Positions 1,900 to 32,009 of a stretch of DNA of 32,648 nucleotides are shown piece after piece; the first letter of the stretch is position 1; each line of letters opens with the position of its first letter. The position numbers and the translations under genes were made by a program. This DNA is from Zoopage sp. CT-All (Eukaryota > Zoopagomycota > Zoopagomycetes > Zoopagales > Zoopagaceae). The stretch lies in the NCBI GenBank assembly GCA_004114245.1, contig QZWS01000057.1:1-32648 (forward strand), written 5' to 3'. The notes under the pieces are model-generated. The model was not told the origin of the DNA. It did not search any database and saw nothing but the letters and a program-made list of their open reading frames with translations.

Positions 1900-2369
1900 A
1901 TGGCCGATGCTGCAAAACCACCGACGAATTATAATCCCGGCCTTTGCCGCAATCTATCCCGCTTCAAGCGCAAATCTTTCCCAGCAGAATTGCACACGAT
2001 GCTCACCTGGGCGCTGTAGAGATGCTGAAGGAGCTGCGACGCGTGGACGACGAGATCCTGCTCCGTCTCAACGCCACGGCGCGCGCCTCCGGAGGATGTG
2101 CGCAACTACGCCAAGAGATGGACGCATCCCACGCTAAACGCGAAGATTTAATACGATACTGCATGGGTGTGATGGACGCAGATGTCACGGATGCCAAAGC
2201 ACGGCAGGCCAAGAATGGAGGCAGTAGCGGCGCGGGAACGGCGGGTGAGATATATCGGGTTGAGCTGCAGCGGCGGATGATCGCAAACGAGATGTATATT
2301 GAGGAGGTGGTGCGGGAGCGGTCGCGGGCAGCATTGTCGGAGCGGTGCCAGCAAGAATGGGACGAGTGA
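1900..2369 (+). CDS. MIX23: Mix23-family mitochondrial intermembrane-space protein
   Basis: Exon 1 (1900-1969) joins exon 2 (2020-2369) across a 50-nt GC-AG intron (1970-2019), giving 139 residues, close to the 144 of human MIX23/CCDC58. With this splice the first cysteine (NPGLC) sits eight residues before MLKELRRVDDEI, the spacing seen in human MIX23. Other conserved positions are a Cys in GGCAQLRQEM, then AKREDLIRYC about 21 residues on, and the C-terminal RERSRAALSERC. Family members are imported into the intermembrane space through Mia40-type oxidative folding and influence protein import. An in-frame ATG at 1867 would add 11 residues and overlap the start of the divergent membrane-protein gene; I prefer 1900. 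Without the GC-AG intron the first cysteine and the body of the protein lie in different frames. Confidence 0.82.
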
Positions 2370-2742
2370 CAAGGGATGCAGCACTGTGTGGAGTGCCTCG
2401 CCATGGACAGCACCGCAGGCTACTATACTGGTGTATATCTTTGACGCGGATAGCGAGTATGCCACGCTCAGTCGTTGGGCACCATACCTGCTTGCATCGT
2501 CATGCTGCTTGGGAGCGATCCAGGTGAGGGTGGCAACATGCTGCCACTGGGTAGCCGCTGCATCTACCACTTGATGTTCTGGGCATTCGCACCCTAGGGC
2601 CCTGACGGACATGGTGTGGGCCACGGCCTCCGCACAACCAGCGCAGTTTCACGACATGCGCATCACCCATACCATCCGTGGAAACGAGCGCCAAACACCC
2701 AAGCATTCCGGACCCACGATGCTGTCGTAGTCGCGCAATGGG
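2370..2742 (-). other. Unresolved interval, possible minus-strand coding segment
   Basis: No gene can be supported firmly here. On the minus strand one frame is open from 2624 down through the interval (for example CECPEHQVVDAAATQWQ and SLSASKIYTSIVACG), and an upstream segment in another frame (LALVSTDGMGDAHVVKL) could join it by a short intron. Several plus-strand fragments are also open but change frame. I recognise no family in either direction. Confidence 0.2.
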
Positions 2743-2748
2743 TATATA
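2743..2748 (+). promoter_or_regulatory. TATA-like element upstream of the CBS-domain gene
   Basis: TATATA in a GC-rich context lies 108 bp before the chosen ATG of the CBS-domain gene and 33 bp before the alternative ATG at 2781. The position fits a core promoter, but it is a short motif and no transcript evidence is available. Confidence 0.3.
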
Positions 2749-2855
2749 CAAAGCGCGCCTGATATGTGAAACTTGTGGCTATGGACAGCGAGGCCAACAG
2801 GCCGCGTCCAGGTGACACGTTTCATCTTCCCAGCCCTACCCCGCATTCAGCCACC

Positions 2856-3899: not shown

Positions 3900-4196
3900 G
3901 CTGCCATCTGAAATCATCGAGCGCGTTTTGCACGGCTTTTCCTTCTGCCCGTTATCCGCCGCCTCCCCGGCGACCACCCCCTCGTTTCCGCCTCGTCCGC
4001 GCTGGCACTCGTACCCTTCCATCTCGACGACAACCAACTCTTACTCTCTTGGCATCCGCCATTGTGCGTCTCTCCGCCTGCGAAACTGAACATCTTCTGT
4101 CCGTTGCCACGTCTTGCTCGTGGTGCTGTGCCGATACGAACTATTCCATCTACGCGCGCGACACCGCCCACGGTCTACCCCTTTTTGTTATCAGAG
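3900..4196. other. Intergenic spacer between the CBS gene and the Mei2-like gene
   Basis: All three plus-strand frames are largely open because the sequence is pyrimidine-rich, but no ATG-initiated coding sequence with family similarity is seen. It presumably holds the CBS-gene 3' UTR and the promoter and leader of the Mei2-like gene. Confidence 0.5.
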
Positions 4197-6842
4197 ATGA
4201 GTGAGAAAAATGACGTCAGGGAGGCGGGAGATGAACGAGGTGATGCGGGTGGTGGTCGAGTGGCTGTAGCAGTGGCCGGGGCAGCCACGTCTTTGGCGGG
4301 CAATATCTCGCCCGCTGTCTCGCCTATCAATTGCGGTGGACCGCAGGTACGCCCCGCCAACACAAACTCTCCGACGCTAATACCCATAGTCAACTGCGCC
4401 AGTATGTGCCTCATACGGCACCTATACACAGCCGCGCCACATCGCCACCACGCCGATCACAGCACGCTCCACCAGCACCATGTTGGCGACGCCAGACTCG
4501 AGCGAGTGGAAGCGCATGGAGCAGCAGCTCATCCAGCTCTCAATCAATACAGATAGCGACGACGAAGGCAAGATCAGCGCCGCAGAAAGTCGAGATACGT
4601 TTGCTACAACTACCCCGCCTGGCTTCACGGCGACCACTGCCTGTGGCGGCGTTGCAAAACCCACCATGCGTCGTCTCTTCACTGATCTCCCGCCCCGCAC
4701 CAACGCCTCAGAGCTCAGCAATGCTAGCCTGCATCCGCCGTCGTTGGAGCGCTCGCTGACATTTGGACCCGGTGCGTTTAGTGCATCCGACGAAGCCGGT
4801 ATCTGGCGCCGTTGCTTGTCAAGCGAGGCTGCAGCTCATTCACGCCAGCCACCAGGTTTTGGCTCGCCTCCCGTCACTTTCTCTCGTCGTGCATATATCC
4901 CGCCGCCCATCCTTGCTTCTATAAAGTAGAGATGCCTGCATCCCTGCTTCTTACTGACATAAATTTCAGCCAGAAAATACGATCAATGCCGCCACCTCCA
5001 AGTATCGCCAACCAGGACCAGCGCCAAACCGCTCCTCAGAATCTCGGCTCTTGGGCTTGTCGCCCGCCGTTCGGCTCATCGCATTCAACTTCGTACCTTC
5101 CAGACGCTCAGAGCAACATTGCTCGCTTAGCCATGGCTGATTTTCATGTTGGGCGCTCGCCGTCAAAGTTGACGCACTCCAACAATTGGCCAGCTACACG
5201 ACCAATTCGGCAAACGACGACGTCCTTGCACATGCCAGAGCCCCCGACGTACGTTGGACCAGGGAGTGCTCACCATGGTCAGGGCATTGAGCCTAGCCGC
5301 TATATTGTCGTTGCAAATGCCGACTCATCATACCTGGCTCACCTTGAATGTGATGCAGCAGTTTATGCAGTTCAGCGCAGCGCCAAACCTAACATCGCCC
5401 ACATCGCTGTTATCGCCTACTATGATCTGAGGCAAGCTGCCTCTTCGCTCAATCGCATCAAGATGGTGGCGTCCATATCAGCAAACTACAATCCAAATCG
5501 CCCCGCAATGGAGGCAAGCTACGCCTCTCTAGAGATGCTAGAATGTTTTGCTCAAGAGGGCAGGCATCGTGCATCAATGACGTCGGATATGGAGCGTCCC
5601 ACGTCCCAGTTGATTGCACCATCCGATGGATGGATTGATATCACCGGCTTTGATGCATTGTTTGATATGAATGCCTTCATAGTAAGGGCATCTGGTATAC
5701 ACATTAAGTGTATTGAATCATTCGTAGGGAGGGCTGCGCACTGCCGCGGGTATTAAGACATCCGAGATTACTCTAGATGGCAATGACATGGCACCAACGC
5801 CAACACTCATTATGGAATTTTATGACTATCGCGATGCGGAGATCACATCACGACACATTAATGGCTCGATTTGTCAAGGCTATCGCCTGAATGTCCGCGT
5901 TCGTCCATCAAAGCATATGCTTTGGCTGGCTACGTTTGGGACAGCTGCCAATGGACAGCCTTTGCCGAGCGCAACCAGCTATTCACGGCCCGCATTGATG
6001 CGCTCCCAGACTACACCAGAGCTTGCTGCTACTTCAACAATGATGCGCTATCCCCCATCTGCTTGGCAGCCACAGGCTTCCTCAGCTGCCAGCAGCACTT
6101 TGCCTCGTCAAGCCGCGAATCCTGCCTTGGATACACAATTCTATGTCCGCGAGCAGCAGCGCCTGATCGAGGCAGACAAGAGTGCGCTGCAAAAGCACCA
6201 GGTTCCGCTCGGAAGCGAAATCAATGTTTGGCGAATTGGCCAAGGTGAGATAATGTTTGCAATCCATCCACTCAATGACGTGGTAGGAATGGATCGTCGA
6301 ACAACATGCATGCTTCGGAATATTCCAAACAAGTACAGCCAGGCATGTATTCAAAAGTTTCGTATAGCTATTAACACCATCGAATTGACTAGCAAATGGT
6401 ACTGGATATCCTCAACAGCACTCATGCTGGTCGCTACGACTTTGTCTACCTGCGCATGGATTTTGTCAATCGCTGCAACGTTGGTTATGCCTTTGTAAAC
6501 TTTGTCAATCCCACGGATATCATCAGCTTTGCGCAGAAGCATGTCGGCAAGCGTTGGGGCGCGTTTGGATCCGACAAGGTGTGTCGTCTCAGCTATGCTA
6601 CAATTCAGGGACGCGTAGCGCTCGTCGATAAGTTTCGCAACTCGAGTGTCATGGAGCGCGACCCAAGCTATCGCCCCAAGCTGTTCTACATCAGCGGGCC
6701 GCAGCGAGGATCCGAAGAGCCGTTTCCAGGCCCCACGCATGGCGGAGACGCACTCCTCGTTAAGCGTGGATCAAGTGAAGAAGCGGATGGAAGCACCGGC
6801 GTGCTTGGTGATCAGGGCGAAGGATTCGCTGCGAAAAAATGA
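4197..6842 (+). CDS. mei2: Mei2-like RNA-binding protein
   Basis: Five exons (4197-4346, 4390-4925, 4970-5681, 5728-6342, 6393-6842) give 820 residues; all junctions are in phase. Introns are 43, 44, 46 and 50 nt; the last is GC-AG (CAG|GCATGT...CTAG). The C-terminal RRM3 (about residues 658-770) is a classical Mei2 domain: RTTCMLRNIPNKYSQ, then FVYLRMDFVNRCNVGYAFVN, VGKRWGAFGSDKVC and YRPKLFYISGPQRG. Two weaker RRMs lie before it: about 339-405 (SRYIVVANAD to VIAYYDLRQA) and 442-527 (WIDITGF to LIMEFYDYRDAEI, NVRVRP). The N-terminal third is low-complexity. Mei2 proteins bind RNA and promote meiosis in fission yeast. GC-AG splicing of intron 4 is required to join NKYSQ to QMVLDIL. The gene is convergent with the helicase, 139 bp apart. 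Confidence 0.9.
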
Positions 6843-6888
6843 TCATCGCACGAGGGATTTTAGTGAGAAAGGCGACTGACGACTGGCT

Positions 6889-8665: not shown

Positions 8666-9672
8666 ATGAGCATCCGCCGTGCGACATGCATTATGCTATT
8701 TGCCGCCATTGCAATCACTGCTGCGAGAAACGCAGCCGTTGAGGCAAGCTTCAACGTTGATCATCCAAGCAAAGCATCAAAGGTCGATGACTTGCAAGAA
8801 GTCGATTTTTCACTGGGAATGCACAGTGTCCCCAAGTTAGATTCACAGACCTCCCGATATGTTGATGAATCCGATCGCGAGCTTAATAGAAATGGCATGC
8901 TTTGGCCAGATTCTCCAGAGCAACCTGCTGCCCCTTCTGACGATATCGCCAATGGATACATGCGCAAAGGTTTACCACCAATTTCACACTCTTTTGCCAC
9001 TCTCTTGGAGCGCACTCCCCAACACAATCCCCATGTGGCCGCTCAAAACTCGGATGTGCCACCGATATACCATGGCTTTGGTAATGGTATTGCACATCAT
9101 GCCACTCGTTACGGCGTACACCAGCCCAACTATCCACCGTATCTAGGTGCCGTTCAACAGCAAACCGCTCATCCCAATGCTGCCATTCAATCCCCAGGAG
9201 TGCCACAGATACCCCAAACCTTTGGTAACATGCATCCCCATCTTTACGGCGTACACCAGCCCAACTATCCACTGTATCTAGGTGCCGTTCAACAGCAAAC
9301 TGCTCATCCCAATGTTGCCATTCAAACCCCAGGAGTGCCACAGATACCTCAAGGCCCTACTCCAACCCAGACTAGCAACTTGTTTACCGAAATACATCTA
9401 CAGCCTGAGAGCCCAGATATCATCACCCATAGATATTCAACCCACACCAGGAAGAAAAAACAAGCTGCATCGTCAAAAACTCCAGTCAAGCCCTGAAAGG
9501 TATTTCCAAAGCAAGCTCAATACCCCCTGAGCAGAATACATCAGAGGAATTTAAGGCAAAGTGGAGACGTATCATATGTGAGCGCAAAGATGAACTCTCG
9601 GCGCATCAGCAGCTTGCTATGCATACTTACCTGGATAAGGCAACGTCAGGTGGTGATTGTGTTTTGCAATAA
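8666..9672 (+). CDS. Secreted Pro/Gln/His-rich repeat protein
   Basis: The ATG at 8666 starts a clear signal peptide (about residues 1-27, CIMLFAAIAITAARNA). After a variable region come two near-identical units of 45 residues (YGVHQPNYPPYLGAVQQQ..., YGVHQPNYPLYLGAVQQQ...) and a weaker upstream partial copy, then a basic segment (THTRKKKQAASSKTP). The uninterrupted frame stops at 9496, but downstream sequence in another frame is clearly coding-like (SEEFKAKWRRIICERKDELS to SGGDCVLQ). A 50-nt intron at 9485-9534 with a GTCAAG donor joins the two in phase and gives 318 residues; a one-base deletion near 9492 is the alternative. AATAAA overlaps the stop. I know no family. The design (signal peptide, internal repeats, low conservation) fits a lineage-specific extracellular or wall protein, which is inference. 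Confidence 0.6.
9110..9352 (+). repeat. 135-bp tandem repeat inside the secreted-protein gene
   Basis: Two copies with a 135-bp period (starting 9110 and 9245) differ at only a few bases over about 108 bp and encode the 45-residue protein repeat. The period is a multiple of three, so copy-number change keeps the frame. Confidence 0.9.
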
Positions 9673-11581: not shown

Positions 11582-12828
11582 GATTGCGCTGAGGTCGTTA
11601 GCGAGTGTGAGGGTTTTGTTCGGAAGAGATGGCTGTTGTCAGCTAAGGCCACGTGCTTGTGTGGGAGAGAAATGCCATGTATTGGGCCGTGGCATCAATA
11701 TAAGCTGTTGTTACTCAGTTCTGTCATTCCGCTGCTGTTAGTCTGTTGTTGTGCTGGTTTGCATCCCTCCCACCTGGGTTTAAAAACCCTGTGGGGAAAA
11801 ACTGTAGTCAGGAGTGATGCACTTGCCAGATCCTATTCTGGGTTTGTCAGTCATGCCAATCCTAATATTGCTTGCTCTAGTTATCATGCCCGCTGGGATG
11901 GGGGCTCCCAGGGGTGGTCATTGGGTAGTATGCAGGTGATAACAGGTGTAACTAGTATTGATTCCACAGAAAAGACACCAGACTACTCTATCAGAAATAC
12001 CATCATAACACCTACTAAAACTGAAAGAATGTAGTTATTGAAAAACTTTGAATTACCTATATTGCTGTCTCTGATTCTAAAAAGAATATAGCAGCTTGGC
12101 TATTCCTTCAACAGTAGTGCTGTAGTGTAGGCAGATTAATAAATCATAAATTATAACCTAATTAGAAATAATTATATAAAATAAATCTAGTTGTTTATAT
12201 ACTATTTAGAAAGTTTGGTGGAGCAAATAAATAGCTGAACAGCAGTCTCTTTCTGTTTCATTAAGAATATATACAGTTCTGCAGACCTTGGTCCCTCCTC
12301 CACCCTCTTTGCTGCTCTCCTCTTTACCACACTCTACAAGTTCTAGATATTCTAGAGCAAAATATGAATATTAAGACTTTGTCAGCAACTGCTACTATTG
12401 TGGACATTACAATCATTATATTAAGACATACCACAAGCATTCAAGACAAATGGACCTAAGTAGATTACTCCTAGCACAAGCTTGCATTCATAACTAATGC
12501 CTATATGGGCTTCACAATAGTACAGTGCCATGCTCCACAAGATTCTTGTCTGCCAAATCCACCCCAACACTCCAACCACTCCCTAGCTGCCACCTGCACT
12601 GCACCACTCCTATCAATGTTGGGGCGCCCCAGCATTGAGCCCCAACATCCAGCCCCAACATTCAGCCCCCAGTCCGTCTCGCCTTGTGGCTCTTTTCTCG
12701 TGACAGCAGCTTGGCTTTTTCGCAAAGGCCTGGCAATTTGCCAACCGCCAGCACCCGCCTCTTCTCTGTCGCCGCTCGCCTCCCGCCGCTCGTCGCCTCT
12801 CCCACCCACCCACATACCACTTACCACC
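11582..12828. other. Long non-coding interval with a CpG-depleted, AT-rich block
   Basis: This is the largest gene-free stretch in the window. The first 150 bp and last 200 bp look like ordinary promoter sequence for PNS1 and YOP1. Between them, 11733-12624 has only one CpG (11891-11892) and becomes very AT-rich around 12000-12480. I find no open frame with a recognisable product, no terminal repeats and no tRNA. It is probably the decayed remains of a mobile element. Confidence 0.6.
12614..12668. repeat. Imperfect 24-bp palindrome followed by short direct repeats
   Basis: CAATGTTGGGGC (12614-12625) is followed directly by GCCCCAGCATTG (12626-12637), its reverse complement with one mismatch. 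Two 13-bp direct repeats (AGCCCCAACATYC, 12638-12663) then repeat one arm. It lies at the right border of the CpG-poor block, about 190 bp before the YOP1 start. Confidence 0.75.
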
Positions 12829-13344
12829 ATGGACAAGGTCCTCGCCTACGAGTCGCAGCTCGACGTCGAGCTGTCCAAGATCCCGCAGCTGCGTCAGCTG
12901 GAGGCCGCCACCGGCGTCAAGAAGACCCATGCCGCCGCCGGCGCCGCCGCCCTGCTCCTCACCATGCTCTTCTTCAACATCGCCGGCCAGCTGCTCTCGA
13001 ATCTCATCGGGTACGGCTATCCGGTGTATGCGTCGCTCAAGGCTATCAACACCGCCGATAAGGCCGACGACACCCAGTGGCTGACCTACTTCGCCGTCTT
13101 CTCGACCTTTGTGCTGCTCGAGTCGTCGGTGCAGTTTCTGCTCGACTACGTGCCGTTCTACTGGCTCATGAAGAGCATCTTCCTGGTGTATCTTTATGCC
13201 CCGCAGACCAACGGCGCGCAGGTCATCTTCAACAAGGTGCTGAACCCGATGCTGCTCAAGAACCAGAAGCACATCGACGCCGTCGTGGACAAGGTCAAGA
13301 CCAGGGTGGACGCCGTCGCCGACGTGCTGGACAAGACCGAGTAG
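12829..13344 (+). CDS. YOP1: Yop1/REEP5-type ER-shaping protein (TB2/DP1/HVA22)
   Basis: The 171-residue protein starts at the ATG of ACCACCATGG, a strong context. After an N-terminal amphipathic region (QLDVELSKIPQLRQLE) come hydrophobic hairpins at about 41-75 (LLLTMLFFNIAGQLL, LIGYGYPVYASLKAI) and 85-125 (LTYFAVFSTFVLLES, FYWLMKSIFLVYLY). The conserved TB2/DP1 core YGYPVYASLKAI, TQWLTYFAVF and APQTNGAQVIFNKVLNP is intact. The tail is a predicted amphipathic helix (VDKVKTRVDAVADVLDK). Yop1 proteins insert as wedges to curve tubular ER, together with reticulons. Length matches yeast Yop1 (180 residues). VAC1 starts 106 bp downstream on the same strand. Confidence 0.96.
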   Translation: MDKVLAYESQLDVELSKIPQLRQLEAATGVKKTHAAAGAAALLLTMLFFNIAGQLLSNLIGYGYPVYASLKAINTADKADDTQWLTYFAVFSTFVLLESSVQFLLDYVPFYWLMKSIFLVYLYAPQTNGAQVIFNKVLNPMLLKNQKHIDAVVDKVKTRVDAVADVLDKTE

Positions 13345-13450
13345 GAATGAATAGGCCCGTCTTTCGCGATGAAATAGCGTATGTTGCTTATCTATATAGC
13401 CCTTTTATTTTTTATGCATCCCTTGCCGCCTATCCCACGGTGACAGCCCC

Positions 13451-15924
13451 ATGTCGACCTGGCGCCGCTCGGCCACCTTCAACGCCAGCCAGCAGCACCT
13501 CATACAGCAGCCGCCGCAGCCGGACCTGCAGTCCCTGGGTGGCTTGCCCCGGGCGTCGGCGTCGCCCAACGGCGCCCAAGCACTGCCCGAGAGCACCCGC
13601 AATGGCATGCAGCAGCACCACGGCCGCTCGCGCAGCTCCAGCAATCTCTCCCTCGGAGGCGCAGACGAGCTCCCCCCGAAGCGCGGTGCCACAATGCCGC
13701 TTGCCATCCCCATTGCACCGCCGCCGTTGACGGCGTGTGGCAGCGGTGCAACCCCAATTCCCATACGCTCGGGATCAAGCACCGGCCTGCTATCCGCCAG
13801 CCGAGGCTCTTCTCCCACGCTGCGCAATCGAATGCTGATGGCCAAGGAGATGGACGGGCTCGGAGGCGGGAGCCTGCCACGGCGGTTTCGCGATGGGAAT
13901 CGGTTCGTCGGCGACACGGACTCTGCGGCGCAGCTGCCGCGCGTGCCCATGAACACGCCCAACGCCAATGGATCAGCACAGCCGCGCCACCTAGCCATTC
14001 CCATGCACCCGGGCTGGGAGGCTGGCAATGGTGGAGCCGGCAGCGCCCTCCGTCCCTCGATGGTGTCCTCAGCCCACTCCTCTATTCATTCCTCCGGGTC
14101 CAGTGCCGCCGTGCTCGAATGCCCCATATGCCACGGGCGGATGGTGTCGCTGGGCCAGCTGAATCAGCATCTAGACGACGACCATCAGCTGGAGACGGAC
14201 GAGGCCGGCGTCGGGTTGGACTTGGATGCGCTGCGGATGTGGTTCAAGGGCAAGATTGCCCCGGTGGTGGTGTCGAGCGCACAGCTGGTGGCTCGGACGC
14301 TGGCCAATGACTCGGCGTCGTCCGGTGCCGGCAGTGCCATGGGTGTTGGCTTGGACGACGTGGCGGAAGATCCAGCGGCAGAACGGCTGGTGACGCGACA
14401 ACACTGGGATGAGCAGGATGGGTGCGCCCGATGCGGCACAGTTCTTGGCCGTGAAGGCACCCGAACTGGCCGCGTCAACTGCCGGCGATGCGGCCGGGTG
14501 TTTTGCCAGGCACATGCGCGATTCCGCATGCGTCTCGCCGCCGACGCCACCCACGATGCAGTCAATGGCGTCTGGTGTCGTGTCTGTGAAGACTGCTACC
14601 AGTCCCGCGATGGCTACCTAGACGATGACGGCGTGACTAGGGATCGCACGGAGGTGTACGCGCTGGTGCGTCGGCGAACAGCAGATGTGGCGAACCTTGA
14701 GATGAATCGACTGGAGAAGCGATTAGAAGTGCTGCGGGCGATCCATTCTGGAGAAGTGGAGCCGGTCAAGCCTGGTATATTCTCATTTGCCGCAAGGACG
14801 TTGAAAGCAGCCGAGCAGACAGTGGTGCGATGGGAAGACGACAACATGGTTCTGTCCTGCCCTTTCTGCCGGTAAGTGAAGCAGATTTAAGCGGCTCTGG
14901 CTCTGGCTCTGAAGCGCTAATTATCATCCTAGAACACTCTTCAATGCCTTGTCACACCGCAAACATCACTGTCGGTTATGTGGCCGAGTCGTATGCACCA
15001 AGGATGCCTGCTCGACAATGTATCCACTCGTTAGCGTAGCACAGAATATACAAGGTAGTCGGGCTGTCAGCAGACTTGCAGGCTGATGTATTGCAGCAGA
15101 AAAGGATCATCCCGAGCTGATCGGTCACGTTCGCATGTGCAAGGAGTGCAGGCGGACCGTCATGCTGCGCAGGGAGCGCGAGGCCGAAAAACTGATTATT
15201 CCCGAGCTTGTCGGCATGCACAATGTAAGCGCATACGGTTCCGGGTCATCCAATCATTTAATATTAGCGACTGGCTCGCCTGCGCGAAACGATCGAACAC
15301 TCTCTCCCCCGATTCCGCATTCTCGTTGGCATGGTGCAAAGGTGACGCCGCATCCCATCGCTTTGCCAACGCTTATTCCTCTCCGACAGAAACATAGATT
15401 CGCTCACCGCCGAGCATCCTGACTATGTGCATGCGCTCGAAACCCGTCGAGTATTGCTGGACACATTTGCTCGCTACGATGCCATCGCCAAGAAACTCGG
15501 AACCATCAAAACGTCGACACGCACGGAGAAACGCCTCCAGCTGGCCATGCAGATATCTGCGAACCAGTTTCTGCAAGACCACATGCTAACGCTGTCAACC
15601 CTTCCCAAGCTTGGGGCCGTTGATCGCGGCAACGATGTCAGGCTGGCTAGGAACGGCGACGACTCGGCGCCATCACGCCGTGGAACGGTGTCTGCTTTAT
15701 CCACAAGTCTGGCCATAGCTGCACAGGAGACTGAAGCCGATCGGCGAGCCCATAAGCTGCGAGAGGAGCTGGCTGTGCTTCGGGACCAGCTCGATGCTGT
15801 CAAGGGCTATCTTGTCAGAGTGGAGAGGGAGGACGAGGATCTGGCGGTCAGTCTACGTATGAACCTCTACGAGCTGGAGCAGAAAATCGAAGAGAAGCGC
15901 GACGAACTCGGCTCTGCTGTCTAA
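13451..15924 (+). CDS. VAC1: Vac1/Pep7-type FYVE protein (rabenosyn-5 homolog)
   Basis: Five exons (13451-14871, 14933-15054, 15097-15224, 15268-15341, 15390-15924) give 759 residues; introns are 61, 42, 43 and 48 nt, all GT-AG and in phase. Domains in order: Ser/Pro/Gly-rich N-terminus; C2H2 finger near 220-245 (ECPICHGRMVSLGQLNQH); a first FYVE-like zinc domain near 322-385 (CARCGTVLG, CRRCGRVFC, CRVCEDCYQ); a second FYVE near 470-530 (CPFCRTLFNALSHRKHHCR, CGRVVC, RMCKECRRTV); and a helical C-terminus (RLARLRETIEHSLPRF onward) containing likely Rab-binding coiled coils. The second FYVE has the fuller basic RKHHCR motif; the first reads RVNCRRC. This matches yeast Vac1/Pep7, an effector that couples Vps21/Rab5 and PI3P to endosome fusion with Vps45. 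Confidence 0.93.
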
Positions 15925-16009: not shown

Positions 16010-19000
16010 ATGCACGTCGTCAAGCCCGCCAAACGGCCTCCCGTAAAGGTACAGAGGCATGCACTAATGCGCTGGCTCACTGTGCATAGGCCCCTGGGCT
16101 TCAGGCGCTTATCGACCAGCTGGTGTCCTGCTCGCAGTCCGAGCTGCGCGGCATGCTCACTGCCCAAATCGCCAACTGGGAGCACCACCGCGGCGATCTC
16201 TACAATTGGGTCCCCGTTTTGAACCGCTTCGATGACATCATGGCAGCTGTCGCTACAGATTTTGGATGCGCTGCTGGCGCACAGGCCCGTGATTTCGACG
16301 ATTCCACCCGCGGACTGGTGATCGCGATCCTCACCTTTAGCCGCCTTTTGATTGAGACATCGACGAATCGAAGCATATACAGCTCTTATGATGTAATATT
16401 TGCTGGCAAACGACGCTGCTCACTTTATTTGTAGCGCCTGAGCGATCTGCTATGTTCCAGCGATTTGGCAGTTCTTGAATCCGTGCTTCGCCTTACCATG
16501 CGCCACGCGCAGCGCATCAACTTGCAAAAGTCGTATCGCCACAACTTCAACATGTCTATGGAGCGGCTCGCTGTCCTTGCTTCTCACTCCCATTCGACAC
16601 AATTTGAATTCTTCCGCACCGCGGATACGACTTCCTCCGAGATCGGCAGTGGTGCTCAACTCGTTGAAGGCCTGGTTCGATTTGATCTTCCAACGGCCAA
16701 GTCTCCTGCCAGGCTATTTGATGTGTTCAATGAGCTTGTCGAGCAGCATATCATCCCAGTGGCTGCGCGCTTTCGACTGTATCATTCTATGGTTATCGCC
16801 GCCGGCGTTGTGCGTAAACAGACTGATGACTGCAATTCCATCCGATTCCTGACAATAGCTATCCTTGGTACGTGCTTATCGTTCCCTTGTCTTGCCATGC
16901 TGATTCGACATCGTGCTAGCTCTTGTCGCATCCGAGGAAGTAGTCGAAGTCAAGGTGTTTGGTCAGGGTGATAGACATCTTGTGAACGAGCTCGTGTCGA
17001 TCGCTCTAGTCGAATCTTCGCATAAACAGGCGAGGCCTACTGCCAACCGTGCATTCCTAACATCGCGCTAGTCCACTCGAGTCTATGCACTAAACGCGCT
17101 TGAGGCCATTGCACGCCTTCGCGATCGAATCAATGTTGTCTCACAAGCCTGCAACCTCTCGCTTGTGCGAGGAATATTTTACGTTTTCCTCGATCGCGTT
17201 GTCAAAACCATCGCTGATGGGAGCGGGTCGATTAGTCCCGAGCTCTGCGAATCGTTCCTGTCATTCGTTGCTTTTTTCGTATCAGTTCAAGGCAGTCTCA
17301 TATTGACAACGAGCAATGTCGTTGAGAGCTTCGTTGATGCAATTCGTCGGGCACCCGTGCGCACGGGCAAGCTCGTGGGCAAGCTGGTCAGCAGCCTCGA
17401 CAACGCAATCGTCAACTGGCATGCTTTTGCGCCGTTTCGCGAGGCACACGGAATCGACGTCGTCGTGGAGCGTATATCCGTCAGTGGCGACCTCCCCCTC
17501 CTTATCACTGACGAGTGCTGTAGATTGAGGCTGATATGGCAACCCCGCTCTCGACCAGTCGCGGTGTTATCTTGAGGGCATTGTTGAAGCTCATTTTGCA
17601 TGCACTCCAGACGCTAGGCAACGTGGAAGGCTTGCGCCATCTCACGGACACGTCGTTGCCAGCCGTCATCGATCGCATCCTTCAAAACCCCAATTTCTAT
17701 GGTCACAACATCGCCGCTGCAGCCGTGAACTTGCTCGCATCCTTGATTCACCAAGAGCCGACAACGCTTGCTGTACTGCAGGAGATGGGCATCACACGAA
17801 GCTTTTTTAATATGGCCAAATCGGATCTCGCACCATCCGCTGAATTCATCCATTCTGTTGGAAATGCCTTCGGTGCTGTCTGCTTGAATGATGCAGGGAT
17901 GGATGAGTTCAAGACGAGTGGCGTGCTCCACTCCTTGCTCGCGATGCTCGCATCGCCATTGTATGGCAAAGTGCTTTTAGACGGAGATATGGCATCAGGT
18001 CTTGGTCATATATTCGACGAGTTTACCCGCCATCAGCCATCGATACGGTCTGATTTTATGCGTGAGTTTATGCTTGTCATGGATTGTGCGCTGTCCGAGC
18101 CGCATATCGATATGCGCACGGATCAGGTCGAGATAATAGGTCGTTTCCTTGAAGGGCTATTCCAGAATAACGCCAACTGCGAGATGTTTGCTGATGCGGG
18201 AGGCATTGACAAAATCATGCTGATATTCCGGCTATCACTGCGCGATTCTTTGAACATCCGAACGTCGGCGCTTTCCTCACTGTTTCACGCTCTCCGGGTC
18301 TTGGCCGAAGTGCTTCCACGCAAATGCATCGTGTCGTGTCTAAGCGCTGGCGTCTCTGCGGTTGACGCCTTTCTTGTGCACAAGTTTGACGAAATGTCGC
18401 TTGCCGCTGTAATCCAAGATGAAACCAAACGTTCGCAGTCTCCACTAGTGCTATTATGGTACTGAATGATATAGGCGACGAAGCCGATCAGGCTTTTGCA
18501 AACTTCAAGCAGACACATGGCCTGCTGTCTGCCATCAGCGAAGTTATTAGCGCTCCCATCTTTGGCCAAGGACGCAGCTCACCACATGTCCTTGAGGCAT
18601 TGTGCGAGAATCTGCCGTTTCTTGAGCGACTAGGCATTCTTTATCAGTATGCCTTCTGATGATCCGCATCGATACTTATTTGCCTAGACAATGCGTGCGA
18701 CAGCGAACATTAATGGGTCTTACGTTCAGCTCATCTGACCTTATGTTCGACCGCTTTATAAAAAGCGGGCCAAGCGCGACCGAATCAACGGTTAACTACG
18801 TTCTGGGCGAGATACAGAGCAGCACTGTCGCCGTGATTCATAGCGTTGTTCGTGTTCTCTCGTCGAAGCGGTCCTTGGAAGGTCGAAATCATAAAAAGGC
18901 CATGCTGGTTGCCAACGCCCTTGTCCTTTTGCAGGATGCTGGCATTGCGTCGGCCTTCTCAGTAGCCGACAGGTCTGCCGTCTGTGCGAGCAAGCTTCCT

Positions 19001-22000: not shown

Positions 22001-25000
22001 TTTGACCAAATATTTAGCGGACAGAACGGTCTTTTTACCACAATTGACGTCGAAGATGCGAATGGAAGTGCGCATCGACCGTTCCAATGGACAGTGACCC
22101 GTCTTGGTCAAGATGCCGCGCCAGCTTCAACCACAGACCGCTGGGTCCAAGAAGCGCGTATTCTCTACGGCCGCAACTGTACCGATGCTGCGGCCCGCTT
22201 TGCCGAGAAGGTAACTGAGCGCATTCGCCGTGGTGCAAGCAGTACAGCGGACCTAGCGAGCACGAGTGCGATCGAACCCTCTGTGGTCTCCGAGGAAACG
22301 ACGCCACCTCCTCCTCGAAGCTATGTGCATGTTTATGGGCGTCCGCTCGATGTCACTGACTTTGGCGTGGATGTCGCCTTCCTTGAGGCGCTCCCTGATG
22401 ACATTCGTGCCGAGGTTCTCGGACAGCATGCTATTGCGAACCCGCAGATTGTCGAGTCTACAGACGATGACGATATCAGCCCCGAATTTCTGGAAGCGCT
22501 GCCTCCCGATGTCCGTGCCGAGCTTTTGCTTCAACAGCGTGCCATGGCTCGTCCCCCTCCTGCTCACAACGCTGCCAATGTGTCTCCCGAGACGCGTGCG
22601 GCACATGAGGCTGAATACAGTGCTCTCTGGGACGCTGCCCTGAATAGCATCACCAGCTCACAGATATCCGTCCTGGTTCGCTTGATGCTAATCACTTCTA
22701 TGGATAAAAAGAGCATTTCCAATATTTTGCGGAACATCTCCGCGTCCAAGAGGATTGTTAAGCAGCTATTGAGTGAAGTCGTTTCACACGTGGTTTTTAT
22801 AACCATAGAGTTTGAATGCGAGACAGGCTCAGAGACATCACTGGAGCAAGATTCCAAGGCACTTTCGGTCAAGACCGCGCTTGATTTTCTCCTTCAACTT
22901 GTCAATACTGGAAATATTGCTTCACTGATACGTGCTCAAGGAGATGATGGGGACGAAGCCATCAAGCGCAACTATTCGTATTTTTCACAGCTGCTGCGGT
23001 GTATGGAGGTCGATGCCATCGCCGCCGATATTTCGTTGAGCTCGTCCTTGACCTCGCTTCTGAGCCAAGTTGGAAGAGCAGTGACAGGCGAGCAAGCAAA
23101 GGAATTGGCGCCTCCAAGCGACCGAAAGCTCATCGTTCGTTGCCTTTCGCGTGCATCGGGAATAACCTTCCGGAATCTTCTTGGCCTGATTCGCCACCTC
23201 ATGGCGAGCGATGCTTTCGCTCAAGGCATCATCAGCGAGCTGCGTGCGACAGTTATCTCGCTTTCCGCAGACCTGACTCGAGATCTGGAGGCTCTGACTA
23301 CCACCATCAAGTCCGAAAGCGGCAGTATTCCCGATGCGGTGTCCGATTCGTATTCGGCCATCTCGTCGCGGCAAGCCTGCTTTCTTCGGTCCATCAAAGC
23401 CATCGACTATCTCGCCGAGCAGAAGCTTTGGCTGAAAGGGACGCCAACCGGCCAGGATCCCCGCTTTGCAAACTTTATTGCTGCCCTGGAATCCTGCCTT
23501 CTTGCCGGCGAGACCAAGCCAGGGCATCAACTGGCTGCACTGCTGCTCCCGGCAATCGAGTCGGCCATGGTTATCTTTGGGCACCTCATCGCTACGGGTC
23601 CTTCCCTTCGATCGCCGTTTGCTTTCTACGTGCTTGATCAGACGGATCTGTTCAGCGGTTTTGTTCAGCGTAATCGGCGCTGTCTTAACAATGTTGTTCG
23701 CTACAGACCTGCATTGCTCGTTGGTCCATTTTCGCTCATGATCAAATCGCCGCAAGCTTTGGATTTTGACAACAAGCGCTCATACTTCCATCAGCAGCTG
23801 CATAAAATCGGTGCCCACACTGGAGCGCTGTCCCTCAGTGTGCGTCGTTCGCACGTATTTGAGGACTCCTTTCGACAGCTTCAGCATCGACGCGGCGACG
23901 AGATACGACGCGGTAAATTTACGGTCAAATTCTACGAGGAAGAGGGCGTCGATGCAGGCGGCGTGACACGCGAGTGGTATCAAGCGCTTTCTCGCCAAAT
24001 GTTCAATGCCGACTATGCGCTTTTCCGCCCCAACGCTGGCGACAAAGTAACGTACCAGCCAAATCCGTCATCGTGGGTCAATCCAGACCATTTGCTTTTC
24101 TTCAAGTTTGTCGGGCGCATCATCGGAAAGGCTATATACGACTCCGCGCTGCTCGATTGCTATTTCGCTCGATCGTTCTACAAGCTTATTCTCGGCAAGA
24201 AAATTGACTACAAGGATATCGAGGCGGTGGATCCTGATTATTACAAATCGCTCAGCTGGATCCTCGAGAATGATATCACAGATGTGATCGACCTTGTTTT
24301 TACCAAGGAAATGGACGTATTCGGCGAGAACAAGGTGGTCGAGCTGGTTCCCGATGGCGCCAACGTCCCCGTCACCGAAGCGAGCAAGCGACAGTATGTG
24401 GATTTGATCGCCGAGCAGATGCTCTCCACGGCAATCAAGCAGCAGGTTGACGCGTTCCTCGAAGGATTCCACGAGATTGTTCCAGCCAAGCTGCTAAAGA
24501 TATTTGATGAGCACGAACTCGAGCTGCTGATCAGTGGCATGCCAGAGATTGATGTATGATGGATGCCATCCGTTTTTTGTCCGCTAATACATCCACAGGT
24601 CGACGACTGGAAAAACAACACGGAGTATTCAGGCTATGCCGCAACCTCGCCGCAAATACTATGGTTCTGGAGAGCAGGCAAGGCTGATAGCGCTCTGGCG
24701 GTGTTTACTGACATGCCCACCAGTGCGCAGCTTTGATCAAGACGAACGCGCCAAATTGCTGCAGTTCTGCACTGGGACCAGCAAGGTCCCGCTCGAAGGC
24801 TTTGCGCATATCCAAGGTCAGCATGGAGTGCAAAAGTTCCAGATTCACAAGGATTTTTCCGCGGTGACTCGGCTTCCAAGCGCACATACGTGCTTCAATC
24901 AACTTGTAAATGACCCCATCGACCCTCTGAATGGCTCATTTCTTCGAATAGGACTTGCCAATGTACGAGTCGTATGAGCAGTTGCGCGCGCGTTTGCTGC

Positions 25001-25085: not shown

Positions 25086-28000
25086 TCAAGAGCTGCTTTG
25101 CACAATCAGACGCAACTTGGGCAGCTCGAGCCATTCTGGCAAATAATTTTCCACTGTGGCAACTGGCCTGCCGAGGGCGAATGCCGAATTCTCCATTCGC
25201 GATCGGCTCTCCAGCAAGAGCGGTGCCTCGGCCGAGGGATCCTCGCGCTTGCCAACCTCGAACATGATTTCCGCGCTCACTGGATTCTCGTAGTCGGAGA
25301 CTGCGTAGATGGAAAGCACCTTCTTGATCTGCGTCGGGTTCAGCATGTAGCACACCTCCATCATAATATCGACATCCTGGGCGGTCTTCTTCTGGAGCTG
25401 CAGAAGCTTGGCTGCTTCCATCAAGCGCTCCAGATTGTCCGACGTCTGTTGGATTTTCTCCGTTTTGCACCACTCCTCGACGCGTGTAATATTGTATTGG
25501 ATTTGCATGCCTAACGTAGGAAGGTCAGCATTGCAAGAGATTCGAATCACCTACCGCGCTTCCAGGAACAGAAGTTTTTGCGGAACAACAGCTGGTTGAA
25601 CGCCGTCATGGCAATATTGTCGAGCAGTTCGAGGATGACGTTGCGTGCGATATCGTCATCCAGATAGTAGAACTTCATAATCTTCCACAGCTTGGTGAAA
25701 AAATTGAGAATGGCGTCCACAGTGATGTCCGATGTGTCATTGCCCATCATCTTGCTGAAGAAGCTGCCGGAAGATTGCAGATTGCAGACAAAGCCGGGCA
25801 ACGACTGACTCTCGAGAACAGCGGGAACGACCAGTTTGCCCATTCGCCCGATAAGGATGTTGAGCCAATTTGCATAGATTTTTGCGGCCAAGGAGCGAAA
25901 ATCGTTCTTGATCTCTCCAACTACGCGTCGAATCTCTCCCGACGACGGATGATCAATGCGCGACATTTGCGTCTCCACGTTGGTCAAGATGGACAGCAGC
26001 TCCATGATGTTCGAGAACCAGAATGCAAAGATGTAGTCGCCATCGAAGCTCTAGTGATGGTCAATGCTGCTTTGCGACGGAAAGATATGCCCACATCAAC
26101 CTGGCCTTGAAGAGACTTGAGCACGTTGAAGAGAATGCGCTTGAGTGGCTCAGTAAGACCGTAGGACCACATATGTGCAATGACCATGCCAATCATATGG
26201 GACGGAAACAAGATCTCTTTGGCGGCGAATTTGTTCTTAAGATCAGCGACGGGGACTAGCGATTAATGTAGCATAGACAGGCGCCATAAGCATCGTACCA
26301 GTGAGATTTTTGATCAGCCCGTTGATCACCTCAAACTCAAGGCCAGGACTGCCAAGGACAGATACGAGTTTCTGACGTTCACGTCAGAGATGCGGACATA
26401 TTACGACAGAAACACTACCTCCCGATCCCCCTCCGACGTATTCTTCATGATGTACGATATACGCGAGGCTTTCGAGCGAACTTCGAGCCGGTTTCCTCGC
26501 CCCATGGACGACGCACCGAATGTTGCGCGCTTCTGCACTCCATCGGCGGCTGGCACCAGTTCGGTCTGGGAGGAGCTCAGTCGGCGATGAGCCTCGGGTT
26601 TGGAAACGAGTACCATTTCTGTGCGCTCTTCGTCGGGTGTTATAGGCCCGCGGCCATTGCCATTGACAGTCTCCTCGATGATGGTGATGGGCCCTGCAGC
26701 GCGAGACTTCATAAAGAGGCTGCTTGAGCGGCGGCTCGCTTTGGAGTATGCATGTGACGAGATCTCTTCAGCACCGCCCGCATAGCCAGTTTCAGCTCGT
26801 TGGTTGGCGAGAGTGGTGCCCTCCTCTTTCGCACGCTGCAACTCTTCGTTCTTCTTTGCAAGGTCCTGATTCAAACGCTGAAACTCTCCATCCATAACTG
26901 CAATCTTTTCGGTCAGGGAGGCGCAGCGATCGGCAAGGGAATTCTTCTCGTCGAGCAGGAACTGAAGCGCCTCCTGCTGCTCCTTCGAGTTGTTTAGAAT
27001 CTTGTTCGCAAGTTCCTTGTTGCGATCCTCCAGCTTTTTGCACTTTTCCTTCCATGACCGGATCCTGCCCTCGAGTGTGCTGATATTCTCCCTAGAAGAT
27101 TGTTGGAGCTGACCAGGAAAGAATGTGAAGACGCACGAATTTTCCTTGTTTTCTGACTGCCGCTGGCGGAGCTGCTGTGTGAGCTCTACGACCTTATTTT
27201 CCAGCTGATACTTGACATTTGTCATCGATTTGGCCTCTGCACGCAGCACCTTGTACTGCTTCTTGGCAATACGACGACGAAGACAAGCCTGGACAAACAC
27301 AACGTTCTTGCGAGTGCGCTGGTACTCTCGGCGTGTGATCCTAAGCAGCGTCAAGCGAATGGAAGGTACAAAGCTGATTGGCACCATCCACGAGCAATGC
27401 GCTGGATGCTGATGACTGCATCATCTCGTTGTTTGGTTCGCACTGCCTTGCGCGCTTGGAATCCACGTACATCTAGGAACATTGTCATCTCGGGCTTTAA
27501 AGGACATTGGAAACGCACAGGCTTGCGTTTTGACGACTTTCTTGCGCTCCTGAACGTACTCCCTACGAGCATTGTGCATGCGCCAAGATTTTTGAATAGA
27601 CACTGCCGCTTTTTCCTGTCGCTCTCGACGAAGACACCGAAACTCTAATTTGGCCCGATAGCGTTGCTGAATGTCGATGACGCGCTTCCGTAGCTCCTTG
27701 TAGAATATCCTCGTCGTGTTTCCGTGCATATATTTCTGGATCATGCTGACGGCTCGTTTCAACTTGTCATTGCGCATTTGTTCCATGCGAGCAAGCTGTA
27801 ATCAGGGATAAGCTTGGGAATGCTTGTCAATACAGCACATGCCTGTCCAGCACGGAAGAATATTTTCGTCTGGCCGATCTGATACTGGTCTTCGGTGAGA
27901 CCAACCGACGAGATGATCTTGGGCGAAATGTCCTCGATTGCGTCCTTCCAGCACGACGAAGGTGTTAACATGCGATAGCGATCGGCGAACTCTGGTAGTG

Positions 28001-30394
28001 TGCGCTTGGTCGGATACCCCTTGGACGAGATCTTGATCGTTTCGAGGACACCACAAGCACGAAGTTGTCCAATCACCGTGTCGAATTCGAACAGCCAGGC
28101 CTGCTTGGGTTGATTTGGCTTGAGGCAGCGGATGTAATGGACATTCGTGGCGTTGATGGTGGCCATCAGCTCAATCAGCGATGCTTTGAAAACAGTGCCG
28201 AGAGTTTGCTTTTTAGATGCGCCGCCAGAGCCTCCGCGCATTGGGCCCGGACGACCCGGTGGCGGGTTTGCCGCGGCGGGAGGTTCGGCGGCCTTGTGCT
28301 TCAAGACGTCGGATGGCGCAATGCACATGAATATAGAGGCCTACCTGCTCTTGGACTGTCTTGATCATGCTCACGAGAAACTCTGACTTGGACTCCATGA
28401 TCACCGCAAGCACCTCATCCGGCACCGTGTCCTTGTTCTTATCCAAAAAGCCCTCCGACTCGTATGTAACGTCAGTCGCGTAGTGACAGATGGTGAAAGC
28501 AGTGCGCGAAAACCGCGGCTTCTTGTAGAACTGCTCATGCTTGGCATTGCCAAACTGATTGTGGATCTTGTCCAGGAAGCCCGCATCCTTGCCGGACGGC
28601 ATGCGACTTTCTTCGTCGAGCAACGAAAGGACACCAAGACGGCCCTCTATGATGTCGATACAGGCCTGGTTGTCGGCAAACTCGATGAATGACCAGCTGA
28701 TTTTTTCGCGGACATACTCCTCCTGCTCGAGCTTGAACACTCTGCGATTGAACTAGAAAAAGTGCGTCAGCAAGTTTGGCGGACATAGGAGCGCTGTTTG
28801 CCTCTTGCTGCAACTTCTCGTTGGCAAAGTTGATGCAGAACTGTTCAAAAGAATTCTTGTCGAAATGCTCGAAACCATAGATATCCAGCACGCCGATGAA
28901 GAGTCCGTCCTTGCTTTCGCCGACAAGCAGCACATCGTTGATGATTTTGACGAACCAGTCGAAGAGATAGGAATAAATGTACTTGGACATGGCGTCGCGA
29001 ACCGCGACGGCATCGGTCGGCTTGAGCTTGGACACAATCTTCTCATTTCGCATGATGATCTGCTTGTTGACGATCCATTTGACGAGCGCGGCCCTGTCGA
29101 CTTGGAGCAGCTCGCAGGCATTGACGATAGCGTCGTCTGACTCGGTAATGGTGGCATTGGCGCCTTGAGCCTTGATCTCGACGTTGCCGAGATGCAGCAG
29201 CCCGGCGAGAATGCGAAAGATGTCCCATTGCTGCTGCAGCGGAATGCCAATGGTAGACATGGCTTTGGTGGTCAGCTCAAATTCCTCGACATCGTCCACG
29301 CCGTTGATCTTGCCCATTCCGCCTTGATTGGTGTAGCGGAAGAAGGACTGGTCTTGCAGCTTGAGCGCTTCGCGTTCCGACGGCGGAGCGCCGGCACAGA
29401 GCTGGTAAAAAATATGGTAGTTGCGCTCGGTGGCCGGTTGAAATACGAGACGAGAGCGCTCGAGCAGGTAGACGCGGATCTTGGCACCAACAATGGCATT
29501 GTCCTGGTTGAAGTGCAGCTCGATATACTTTCCAAAGCGCGATGAGTTGTCATTGCGAGTGGTTTTGGCGTTACCAAACGATTCAAGGATGGGATTTGTT
29601 GCCATGATCCGCTCCTCGGTTTCCGAGAAGCCATCGGAATTGGGCGCATTTGCCACTGTCCCGGGCGCCTGCTTCTTGCCAGCCTCGCCAGCCATGGCGA
29701 AATACCTCATGACGAATTTAGCCGACACTGTCTTTCCGGCACCGGACTCGCCCGAGATGACGACGGTCTGGTTGTGGCGCTCCGTGATCATGCCGCGGTA
29801 GGCCTCCTCGCCGATGGCGAAGAGATGCGGCTCGAGCTCGCCGCGGCGCTTGCCAGAATAGGCCTGGACAAGCTCGGAAGTGTAGATGGGGACGCGGGCA
29901 AATGGATTCATGGCGATCAACACGATGCCAGAGTAGGTGTATACATAGTGCTGGGAGTAGCGCACACGAAGGTTTTGGAGCACTGCAGACGCGTGGTCAG
30001 CGGGACTGGATGGGAGCAAGCTGCCGGCCTACCGGAGGGTTCGTTGAGATACGATAAATTGGTTAAATCGTCCGTCGCTTCGAGATTCGGCGGATTGCGC
30101 ATTGGGGGCAGCTCCGAGACATCCGTGGCATTGAGCTTCACGGTGGCGGTGTGTTCCTAGCGAGAGGGATGAGCACGATGGCGACAGCGACAGCGACAAC
30201 GCATACACCGCCATCGTCGCGATCAAACACCAGCGTGACGGAATCGCCATTCTCGGTGCGAGTGCGCACGGTGCCGGTGATGAAGCCTTCCTGCTTGTCG
30301 GAAAACCAGACCCCGACACCCTGGATGGGCAAAGTCAGCTCCGACGTTGATAGGGAGCAAGGCATACGGGGACGTAAGAATCAACGCTGTCCAT
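25086..30394 (-). CDS. MYO2: Class V myosin heavy chain
   Basis: Thirteen exons, 5' to 3': 30368-30394, 30207-30320, 30033-30156, 28802-29982, 28345-28752, 27843-28298, 27519-27795, 27385-27472, 26419-27340, 26299-26371, 26095-26255, 25555-26050, 25086-25510. The frame closes at 1583 residues, or 1568 if the stop-free intron 27092-27136 is removed; yeast Myo2 has 1574. N-terminal SH3-like domain (GVGVWFSDKQEGFITG); motor with P-loop GESGAGKT (about 164), switch I NDNSSRFGKY and switch II DIYGFEHF (about 454); a Pro/Gly-rich loop 2; six IQ motifs (about 780-920); coiled coil; DIL cargo-binding domain (FFTKLWKIMKFYYLDDDIAR, QIQYNITRVEEWC). Two introns are GC-AG (28753-28801, 27796-27842). The border at 28299 uses an AAG acceptor and is uncertain. 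Class V myosins carry vesicles and organelles along actin. The stop is 44 bp from that of TOM1. Confidence 0.95.
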
Positions 30395-30699
30395 GCAACG
30401 GGAGACGACGGACCAGCGGCGAGAGCGAAAGGCAGAGCAGCGAGGGATGCGGCGGACGCGGCAGGTGGAGTGCGAAACGGTGCCAGCAGCATTTACGGTA
30501 TTTTCGCCGATGCTGCTCACCATCGTGGAAGAACGTATAGTGAAGCATATATTTCACCGATTCAAGCTCATGTTACACAGCAAACGCCGTCTACTCCTCC
30601 CACATACTTTCGACTTTGATTTCCAGTGCCCCAAGCAGCCTACGCAAAGTGCTCTACTTCAATCACAAGGATGTACACTCCAAGCCAGCAGATTGATGT
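30395..30699. other. Spacer upstream of the myosin gene
   Basis: About 300 bp between the stop of the actin-related gene and the ATG of the myosin gene, both on the minus strand. It must hold the first gene's 3' end and the myosin promoter. I see no conserved motif, open frame or RNA gene in it. Confidence 0.5.
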
Positions 30700-32009
30700 C
30701 TAAATAGCCCGCCAATTCATCGATCCTGTCTCGTAATACTCTGCCACCGATGTTGCAATGTTGCGTTCAAATTGCGGCATGGACGAGATGATCGAGCCGC
30801 CTAGCCAGGAAAGCATGTCTCTGTTTCTCGGCACAATGATTCGAGAGTCCCAGGACGCGAGAGCGCCGTCCGTAAAATCAGCTAGTGCGGCAGCGTTAGT
30901 GGGGGGCAACGAAGCGGTGCAAGCCAACTAGTAAATCGCTCAGTGAGTCCGGGCATCATAGAGCCGCCGCCGGCGAGAACAATCCCCCGGAACAAATCCC
31001 TCCTATCCGTCAGCTCTGTATATCCCTTGATCGTGTCCAGGGCCATCTGCACCACCCCGGCATGCTCTCGAGCGATCAGCCGCGGCTGGAACAGCGTCTC
31101 GGGGACCACAAACTGCGCGTCATTGATGACGACCTGGTGCTCGTCCGGCAGCCGGTATTTGACCATCCACGGCTTCTTCCGCCACCGGTTCACCTCGACC
31201 GAGTACTCGTTGGCGACATACCCCACGGCCTTGAAGATGTCTTCGGACTGTGTAATGGTGATGTCGTCCATGGTCGGCGAGGCAGGCGACCTCGGGTCAA
31301 AGGAATAGCTTTCGGTCTCCCCGGTCGAGTCCTGGAGCGCCTCGCGCATCAGCTTGATCATGTCTGCGCCCGCGTACGTGCTGAGCGTCGAGTGCGAGAC
31401 GTCAATAGTGCCATCGAAGACGGGCACGCAGTTGGTCAGGCCGTTGCCGAGCATCATCACGAGCCCCGAGGCAAGGGCCTGCGAGTAGAGCGACAGCGCG
31501 CACTGCGGTAGAATCTAGAGGGCGCGTCAGGAACAGCAATGCTGCGGGGGGGACGTGCCGCGAGCGAGTCCAGTTGGAAATGCTCAAACAGCACCTCGGC
31601 GGTCGTGTCCCGCACCCGCTGCGAGTTACCGGCGTTCTCGGTCAGCACCATGCAGCCGCCGTCCGGGTCCATGCCGATGCCGTCGAGCACATGCAGCATG
31701 ATGGCCTCAAAGGCGTCAAAGTCGTGGATCACGCCCTGGGCAACGGGATGCCGCAGATCGGACTCGACCCGGCTCTTGATGCGGGACTGCCAGCAGCGGT
31801 ATGCCAGCGACTTGCTGGCCTTGGGCGATGCGAACAGGCGGTGGTAGTCGTTGATGGCATCGCTGTCGATGACGTTGGCCTCCACGGTGACCCGTGCCAC
31901 GTCAGTGCCCGATGGTGCGGCTTTAATCCAACCGGTGCCATTGTCGACGACAATCTAGCTAAAGGGTTAGCGGGGCCGCAGCCCGCGCGCCGCAGCCTGC
32001 CTTGCTCAT
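30700..32009 (-). CDS. Divergent actin-related protein
   Basis: Four exons (32001-32009, 31559-31954, 30929-31514, 30700-30881) give 390 residues. The 9-nt first exon (MSK) joins IVVDNGTGWIKA, the normal actin N-terminus, across a 46-nt GC-AG intron with a CTAAC branch; the second intron (31515-31558) is also GC-AG. Actin-fold landmarks: phosphate loop 1 DNGTGWIK, HPVAQGVIHDFDAFEAIM, CALSLYSQALASGLV, RLPDEHQVVIND, PETLFQPRLIA, VLAGGGSMMPGL and SWLGGSIISSM. The second phosphate loop is degenerate: where actin has LDSGDGVTH this reads MLGNGLTN, so Asp154 and Asp157 are replaced, while the Gln137 position is kept. The C-terminus (NWRAI) lacks the actin KCF ending. I cannot place it in a named Arp class. 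Reduced ATP hydrolysis is inference. Confidence 0.85.

Follow-up and report, generated by a model that had tools for sequence, protein, structure and literature searches.

GC-AG introns account for 8 of the 36 introns in the window, by which we mean the whole stretch of 32,648 nucleotides that was analysed, and we consider it probable that they are ordinary U2-type GC-AG introns of a genome with weak donors, in which the true share of such introns would be about 3 to 8%, the window being a chance-high sample that was brought forward because it looked odd. On this reading, a rare kind of intron that is already known occurs at an elevated level, and no new splicing rule is involved.

GC-AG introns in the window

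The count for the window comes from gene models that were checked singly and comprises 28 GT and 8 GC introns, GC donors thus making up 22% (interval 10–39%), in agreement with the initial annotation, which had put them at about a fifth. If the share were 1%, at least eight such introns among 36 would be expected by chance with a probability of 2e-9. Gene-finder rows that we regarded as unsafe (966-1011, 1389-1440, 13341-13446 and 30535-30580) were left out of this count, and four calls between 11633 and 12562, namely a 194-nt GC intron at 11633-11826 and three neighbouring GT introns, were dropped as spurious. The window also contains a predicted 9-nt microexon of TOM1 (16859-16867) lying between two GT introns and, as judged by eye, a near-identical repeated segment at 9050-9360 within the open frame 8693-9496, as well as an AT-rich stretch at 11760-12640 that is without a convincing gene and lies between gene-dense regions.

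Table 1. Introns of the window, credible GC donors in the other window-like contigs, and loci of U1 components. Positions without a prefix are those of the window; a slash marks a splice junction.
Feature	Position	Strand	Details
GC-AG intron, MIX23	1970..2019	+	phase 1, donor AGC/GCAAAT, 50 nt; missed by the gene finder
GC-AG intron, mei2-like	6343..6392	+	phase 0, donor CAG/GCATGT, 50 nt; called with free donors
GC-AG intron, TOM1 N-terminal part	17030..17071	+	phase 0, donor CAG/GCGAGG, 42 nt; called
GC-AG intron, TOM1 HECT domain	24678..24723	+	phase 1, donor CAG/GCAAGG, 46 nt; missed by the gene finder
GC-AG intron, myosin V	27796..27842	-	phase 0, donor CAG/GCATGT, 47 nt; called
GC-AG intron, myosin V motor	28753..28801	-	phase 0, donor GAG/GCAAAC, 49 nt; called
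GC-AG intron, actin-related protein	31515..31558	-	phase 0, donor GCG/GCACGT, 44 nt; called
GC-AG intron, actin-related protein	31955..32000	-	phase 0, donor AAG/GCAGGC, 46 nt; called
GT-AG intron finishing the actin-related gene (outside the eight)	30882..30928	-	one GT intron; spliced C-terminus unbroken, ends GSMNWRAI-stop
GT intron	1136-1188		one intron
GT introns, mei2			three introns
GT intron, helicase			one intron
GT introns, zinc-finger gene	13451-15924 (gene)		four introns
GT introns, TOM1			nine introns
GT introns, myosin V			nine introns
Credible GC donor outside the window	L003:8037		no frame-keeping GT donor found
Credible GC donor outside the window	L012:5958		no frame-keeping GT donor found; segment without Pfam match
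Credible GC donor outside the window, cold-shock	L009:5276		KFFNSQ/KGYGF; conserved sequence lost or split with GT choices (in part from known motifs)
Credible GC donor outside the window, mitochondrial carrier	L009:8177		conserved sequence lost or split with GT choices (in part from known motifs)
Credible GC donor outside the window, phosphoglucomutase	L014:8719		conserved sequence lost or split with GT choices (in part from known motifs)
Credible GC donor outside the window, phosphoglucomutase	L014:9606		no frame-keeping GT donor found
Credible GC donor outside the window	L008:6876		GT donor possible
Credible GC donor outside the window, presumably eIF5B N-terminus	L022:8089		GT donor possible
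U1 snRNA	L002:1501-1663 (G000:C309:31256-31418)	-	5′ part reads UAACUUACCUUG; exact 5′ end uncertain
U1-C	L031 ~1501-1596 (G000:C282:2796-2891)	-	W28 in exon 2; also Ile11 and Phe12

On inspection of the sequence, all eight intervals were found to start with GC and to end with AG, each of them holds a YTNAY-type branch motif that can be recognised by eye, and their lengths of 42 to 50 nt fall within the main peak of intron lengths in the genome, which lies at around 40 to 55 nt. We also applied our own semi-Markov gene finder, a C program that trained itself on 293 kb of the assembly. In the run concerned, the acceptor was fixed as AG and the donor was left free: GT started at 0.5, the 15 remaining dinucleotides started at 0.033 each, and neighbouring donor and branch positions were given weak initial preferences. 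This run called six of the eight introns unprompted and missed that of MIX23, in which exon 1 is very short, and that of the TOM1 HECT domain, both of which are backed by homology. As sequence features, the eight GC-AG introns of the initial annotation have therefore held up, and we infer from their sequences that they would be spliced in vivo.

The raw numbers of the free-donor run (354 introns, made up of 269 with GT, 32 with GC and 53 with nine other kinds of donor) were not used as a share, since the 53 calls of other kinds indicate that the gene finder overcalls. Several other approaches were discarded. For instance, allowing introns of up to 250 or 120 nt produced many spurious long introns, and these limits were replaced by a range of 34 to 66 nt; counts of short donor, branch and acceptor patterns placed GT itself no higher than decoys, because donors are weak in this genome; and the support obtained by masking one donor proved uninformative, with neighbouring dinucleotides taking its place.

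It had also been claimed that exon phase, together with conserved protein sequence across the junctions, excludes GT donors at most of these introns. When the stretch from 45 nt upstream of each GC donor to 30 nt into the intron was searched for frame-keeping GT donors, these were absent or damaging for six of the eight introns, and for these the claim stands. No such donor was found for MIX23 within this range, and adding exon 1 by splicing lifts the Pfam MIX23 score from 48.3 to 57.3 bits. At the mei2-like intron, TOM1 24678, both myosin introns and actin-related 31515, each frame-keeping GT choice that was found inserts or deletes residues within conserved sequence. In mei2, the RRM_2 profile is matched at 97 of its 97 positions across NKYSQ/QMVLDIL, and in myosin V, both KLQQE/FNRRVF (28753) and FFRAGQ/LARMEQ (27796) align ungapped to solved myosin Va, a GT donor 9 nt inside the latter intron being one that would add three residues. 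Splicing at TOM1 24678 restores WFWRA/VRSFDQ, which we take to fit the HECT consensus, and the sole GT alternative found there removes that junction. As for the actin-related protein, which scores 140.8 bits against Pfam Actin, six-frame Actin matches covering 4-126 and 125-349 flank the intron at 31515-31558, and the model is covered gap-free.

The claim does not extend to the other two introns, at which a GT donor is possible. TOM1 17030 has a gene-finder support of 13.2 nats and, if left unspliced, would bring a stop, and in-frame GT donors lie 21 and 36 nt upstream of it as possible alternatives. Actin-related 31955 joins MSK to IVVDNG with a support of 17.2 nats, and a GT donor 30 nt upstream stays possible because homology does not constrain the N-terminus. 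A whole-database search for homologues of the actin-related protein scored none.

GC donors elsewhere in the assembly

The assembly comprises 8.62 Mb in 419 contigs, and 260 kb of it were read outside the window. We took the outside share from 200 kb of window-like contigs and left out six contigs (L007, L016 and L018 to L021; 60 kb) because their composition and predicted intron length differ from those of the window, the introns predicted in them measuring about 85 to 107 nt, with no 45-nt peak and with a doubtful longer tail. Perhaps these contigs represent a second eukaryote in the assembly; the markers that were searched are not doubled, there being one strong actin match, one U1 and one strong U6. 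Taken alone, the six contigs gave no GC signal among the six dinucleotides tried (7.0 nats for GC, 10.0 for TT, 8.9 for CA and 6.7 for GA), and the GC calls that fell in them, namely L018:5181, as well as L018:5169 and L021:9547 when the donor matrix was set from general background, were dropped. Three Rpb2-type genes are expected, and two were found in the whole assembly (G000), so the assembly is probably incomplete.

In the 200 kb of window-like contigs, a model with GT and GC donors, in which the window contributed to the GC matrix, yielded 165 introns, including 9 with GC. One of these (L005:8958) was dropped as doubtful, as it belongs to a first exon and a GT alternative exists, which leaves 8 credible GC donors among 164 (4.9%, interval 2.1–9.4%; Table 1), or 6 among 162 (3.7%, interval 1.4–7.9%) in a securer set without L008:6876 and L022:8089. 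With a GC matrix independent of the window, the outside count became 10 of 166, L017:6097 and C263:27627 being gained and L009:5276 lost; C262 and C263 together had no GC donors among 47 introns. Thus, the extension of the window's figure of a fifth to the whole genome, which the initial annotation had implied, is not supported by these 200 kb of the assembly. The outside share is nevertheless higher than the fungal mean of 1.009% given in Table 1 of PMC7072748 (p 0.0003 for 8/164 and 0.006 for 6/162). The window and the rest differ (Fisher p 0.0023, or 0.0076 on the securer sets), as one would expect of a window that was selected for its oddity and from which later observations regress, and the fair figure is therefore 3 to 8%.

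A share no greater than the 1 to 2% of fungi, in which chance and the selection of the window alone produced the excess and the outside GC calls are partly false, is in our view rather unlikely. It would agree with the small number of outside GC calls at strict support (2/118 at 6 nats, 1/84 at 10 and 0/61 at 12), with the possible GT alternatives at L008:6876 and L022:8089, and with an earlier run on all contigs in which GC was not separated from decoys outside the window (17.6 nats for GC and 16.3 for TA, by subtraction). However, calls with low support can be true. The two GC donors of phosphoglucomutase domains are examples: L014:8719, supported by 1.5 nats, falls within a phosphoglucomutase domain that matches Pfam over its full length and clearly spans the junction, and L014:9606, with 1.2 nats, joins PNLT/YASDLV in a Pfam domain that also clearly spans the junction. 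Moreover, even the securer set remains above a 1% share at the p value given above. At two other outside loci, the Pfam matches were less complete, that of the cold-shock protein (L009:5276) coming in two stretches and that of the carrier (L009:8177) beginning 3′ of the junction.

We also compared GC with decoy dinucleotides by allowing GT and one other dinucleotide at a prior of 6%. In 190 kb outside the window, GC gained 12.8 nats under this prior, while all 14 of the other dinucleotides lost (-0.2 to -8.4 nats). In the window, GC gained 34.6 nats, and 12 of the 14 decoys gained more than 1, up to 14.6, in a stretch in which the GC introns leave gaps. Five decoys were also tried outside the window with priors of 0.5 to 4%; of these, GG gained up to 4.4 nats (with the matrix set from general background), and AT and CA gained up to 1.5. 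With the window-drawn matrix, the GC prior that did best among those tried was 0.15 within the window and 0.04 outside it, and a single shared prior of 0.08 costs 2.4 nats vs separate priors, so the heterogeneity between the window and the rest is modest.

The practical warning of the initial annotation, that predictors restricted to GT donors would break genes in this DNA, is borne out: a finder limited to GT can model neither the five genes of the window in which GC introns occur nor, among the 55 intron-bearing genes predicted in the other window-like contigs, the 7 that hold the eight credible GC donors.

Donor strength and the U1 snRNP

The GT donors of this genome are weak, with 1.92 bits outside GT itself and almost no preference at +4. 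AG at -2 and -1 is found in 9 of the 16 GC donors vs 36 of the 143 GT donors (p 0.016). At +3, A is present in 15 of the former and 98 of the latter (p 0.041), whereas at +4, +5 and +6 the same two groups are alike. Compensation in the GC donors is thus partial, involving the exon-end AG and the A at +3 and not positions +4 to +6, and stronger positions elsewhere in the donor are a known pattern of GC-AG introns (PMC2490688). Counted over the eight other positions, GC donors form 5.44 pairs with U1 vs 5.17 for GT donors, which does not make them clearly better matched (p 0.15). C at -3 occurs in 9/16 GC donors vs 38/143 GT donors, and the U that occupies U1 position 11 cannot pair with C. The exon-side AG preference that had been proposed for the window, where six of the eight GC introns do follow AG, is upheld by the AG excess overall but comes mostly from the window and is weaker in the outside donors, 3 of 8 of which follow AG.

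U1 snRNA, U1-C and Luc7 had been named in the initial annotation as places in which changes might be sought. A single U1 snRNA match was found in the assembly at E up to 10, and its donor-pairing core, ACUUACCU, is intact, including the A opposite +2. The ACAGAGA of U6 is likewise unchanged, LUC7 is present in the assembly, and the U1, LUC7 and U1-C loci are nearer in composition to the window than to the six contigs left out. Since no U1 or U6 change that would pair with C at +2 was found, the likely route is the known tolerance of the mismatch. In the binding assays of PMC4383343, human U1 snRNP bound donors with +2C better than those with +2A, and a wobble with protonated A presumably accounts for this. 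U1 snRNA would then pair with the other donor positions and tolerate the C-A mismatch at +2, and after the U1 step, GC donors would be handled by normal U6. With short introns (mostly 40 to 55 nt), an evident YTNAY branch and weak donors, GT-to-GC changes may be tolerated more often than in most fungi, and the 22% of the window would represent the upper tail of a genome share of about 3 to 8%. That the weak donors are the cause of the raised share is something that we infer.

Two differences in U1 components suggest another explanation, namely a changed U1 snRNP with less discrimination at +2. Residue 28 of U1-C is Trp, at the place where the human protein has Arg (GRKH) and the yeast protein has Lys (GKNH), and position 11 of U1, a G in the family, is U. 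For instance, yeast K28A grows normally and bypasses Prp28, from which its authors infer a less stable complex between U1 and the donor (PMC3985668), and human U1-C carrying R28G,K29S fails to enhance the E complex (PMC4383343). However, the latter source also describes human U1-C as contacting no bases and alanine at these sites as having no effect on yeast growth; the Trp could be a single-base assembly error; and a changed U1 snRNP would leave the difference between the window and the rest unexplained. We therefore regard a changed U1 snRNP as an improbable cause, and we are equally doubtful that a natural loss of the basic residue (R/K28 to W) in U1-C weakened donor selection and gave rise to several-fold more GC-AG introns. 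Lying near the duplex of U1 and the donor, W28 is a testable lead and no more, as it is one base in one assembly. The first intron of the U1-C gene itself has, by eye, a GT donor (GCG/GTGCGC). The relaxed 5′ splice-site rule that had been suggested for this lineage draws some slight encouragement from an outside share above 1.009%, and no relaxing snRNA change was found to go with it.

Given the p value of 0.0023 for the window against the rest, a real local excess is possible, and GC donors are enriched in alternatively spliced human, nematode and Arabidopsis genes (PMC2490688), but it is very improbable that a role in regulated splicing has preserved GC donors in these genes or in this part of the genome, the carriers lying on both strands and having unrelated functions (MIX23, mei2-like, TOM1, myosin V and actin-related) in a window that was chosen for its excess.

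Relation to known GC-AG-rich genomes

GC-AG introns and genomes rich in them are already known. Like the U2-type GC-AG introns of other fungi, those described here combine a GC donor and an AG acceptor with some stronger flanking positions, an ordinary length and a branch motif; unlike them, they reach a share of about 3 to 8% (22% in the window) vs the mean of 1.009% in PMC7072748. An outlier of similar size in the same source is Meyerozyma guilliermondii, for which major non-canonical sites amount to about 6.67% in an annotation count. Within the partial coverage of our search of the literature on GC-AG introns, no fungus with a transcript-based share so high was found.

Much higher values were given for two algae in a 2011 survey (PMC3033335), in which GC-AG introns amount to 22.2% in Micromonas pusilla and 39.6% in Aureococcus anophagefferens, both of which have a canonical U1. 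The resemblance lies in an excess of GC-AG introns alongside an intact donor-pairing core in U1, but there are several differences. The shares of these algae are far above that found here outside the window (8/164), where a level of about 20% genome-wide was not seen. Their genomes have 65.9% (Micromonas) and 69.5% (Aureococcus) G+C, in contrast to 54.4% in the window and 49.5–59.5% across the stretches whose composition was listed, and the first 11 bases of their U1 are fully canonical according to the survey, whereas the U1 found here has U at position 11 and deviates at its first two bases. The cause suggested in that survey for the algae was RNA modification or U1 proteins.

If W28 of U1-C were causal, it would provide a protein-side source of a GC-AG excess, which was proposed for the algae as one possibility (PMC3033335). 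Two candidate causes that can be tested in yeast emerge from the analysis, residue 28 of U1-C and position 11 of U1, and should transcripts bear out the raised share, this genome would be a compact fungal-type case in which to ask why a few genomes accumulate GC donors.
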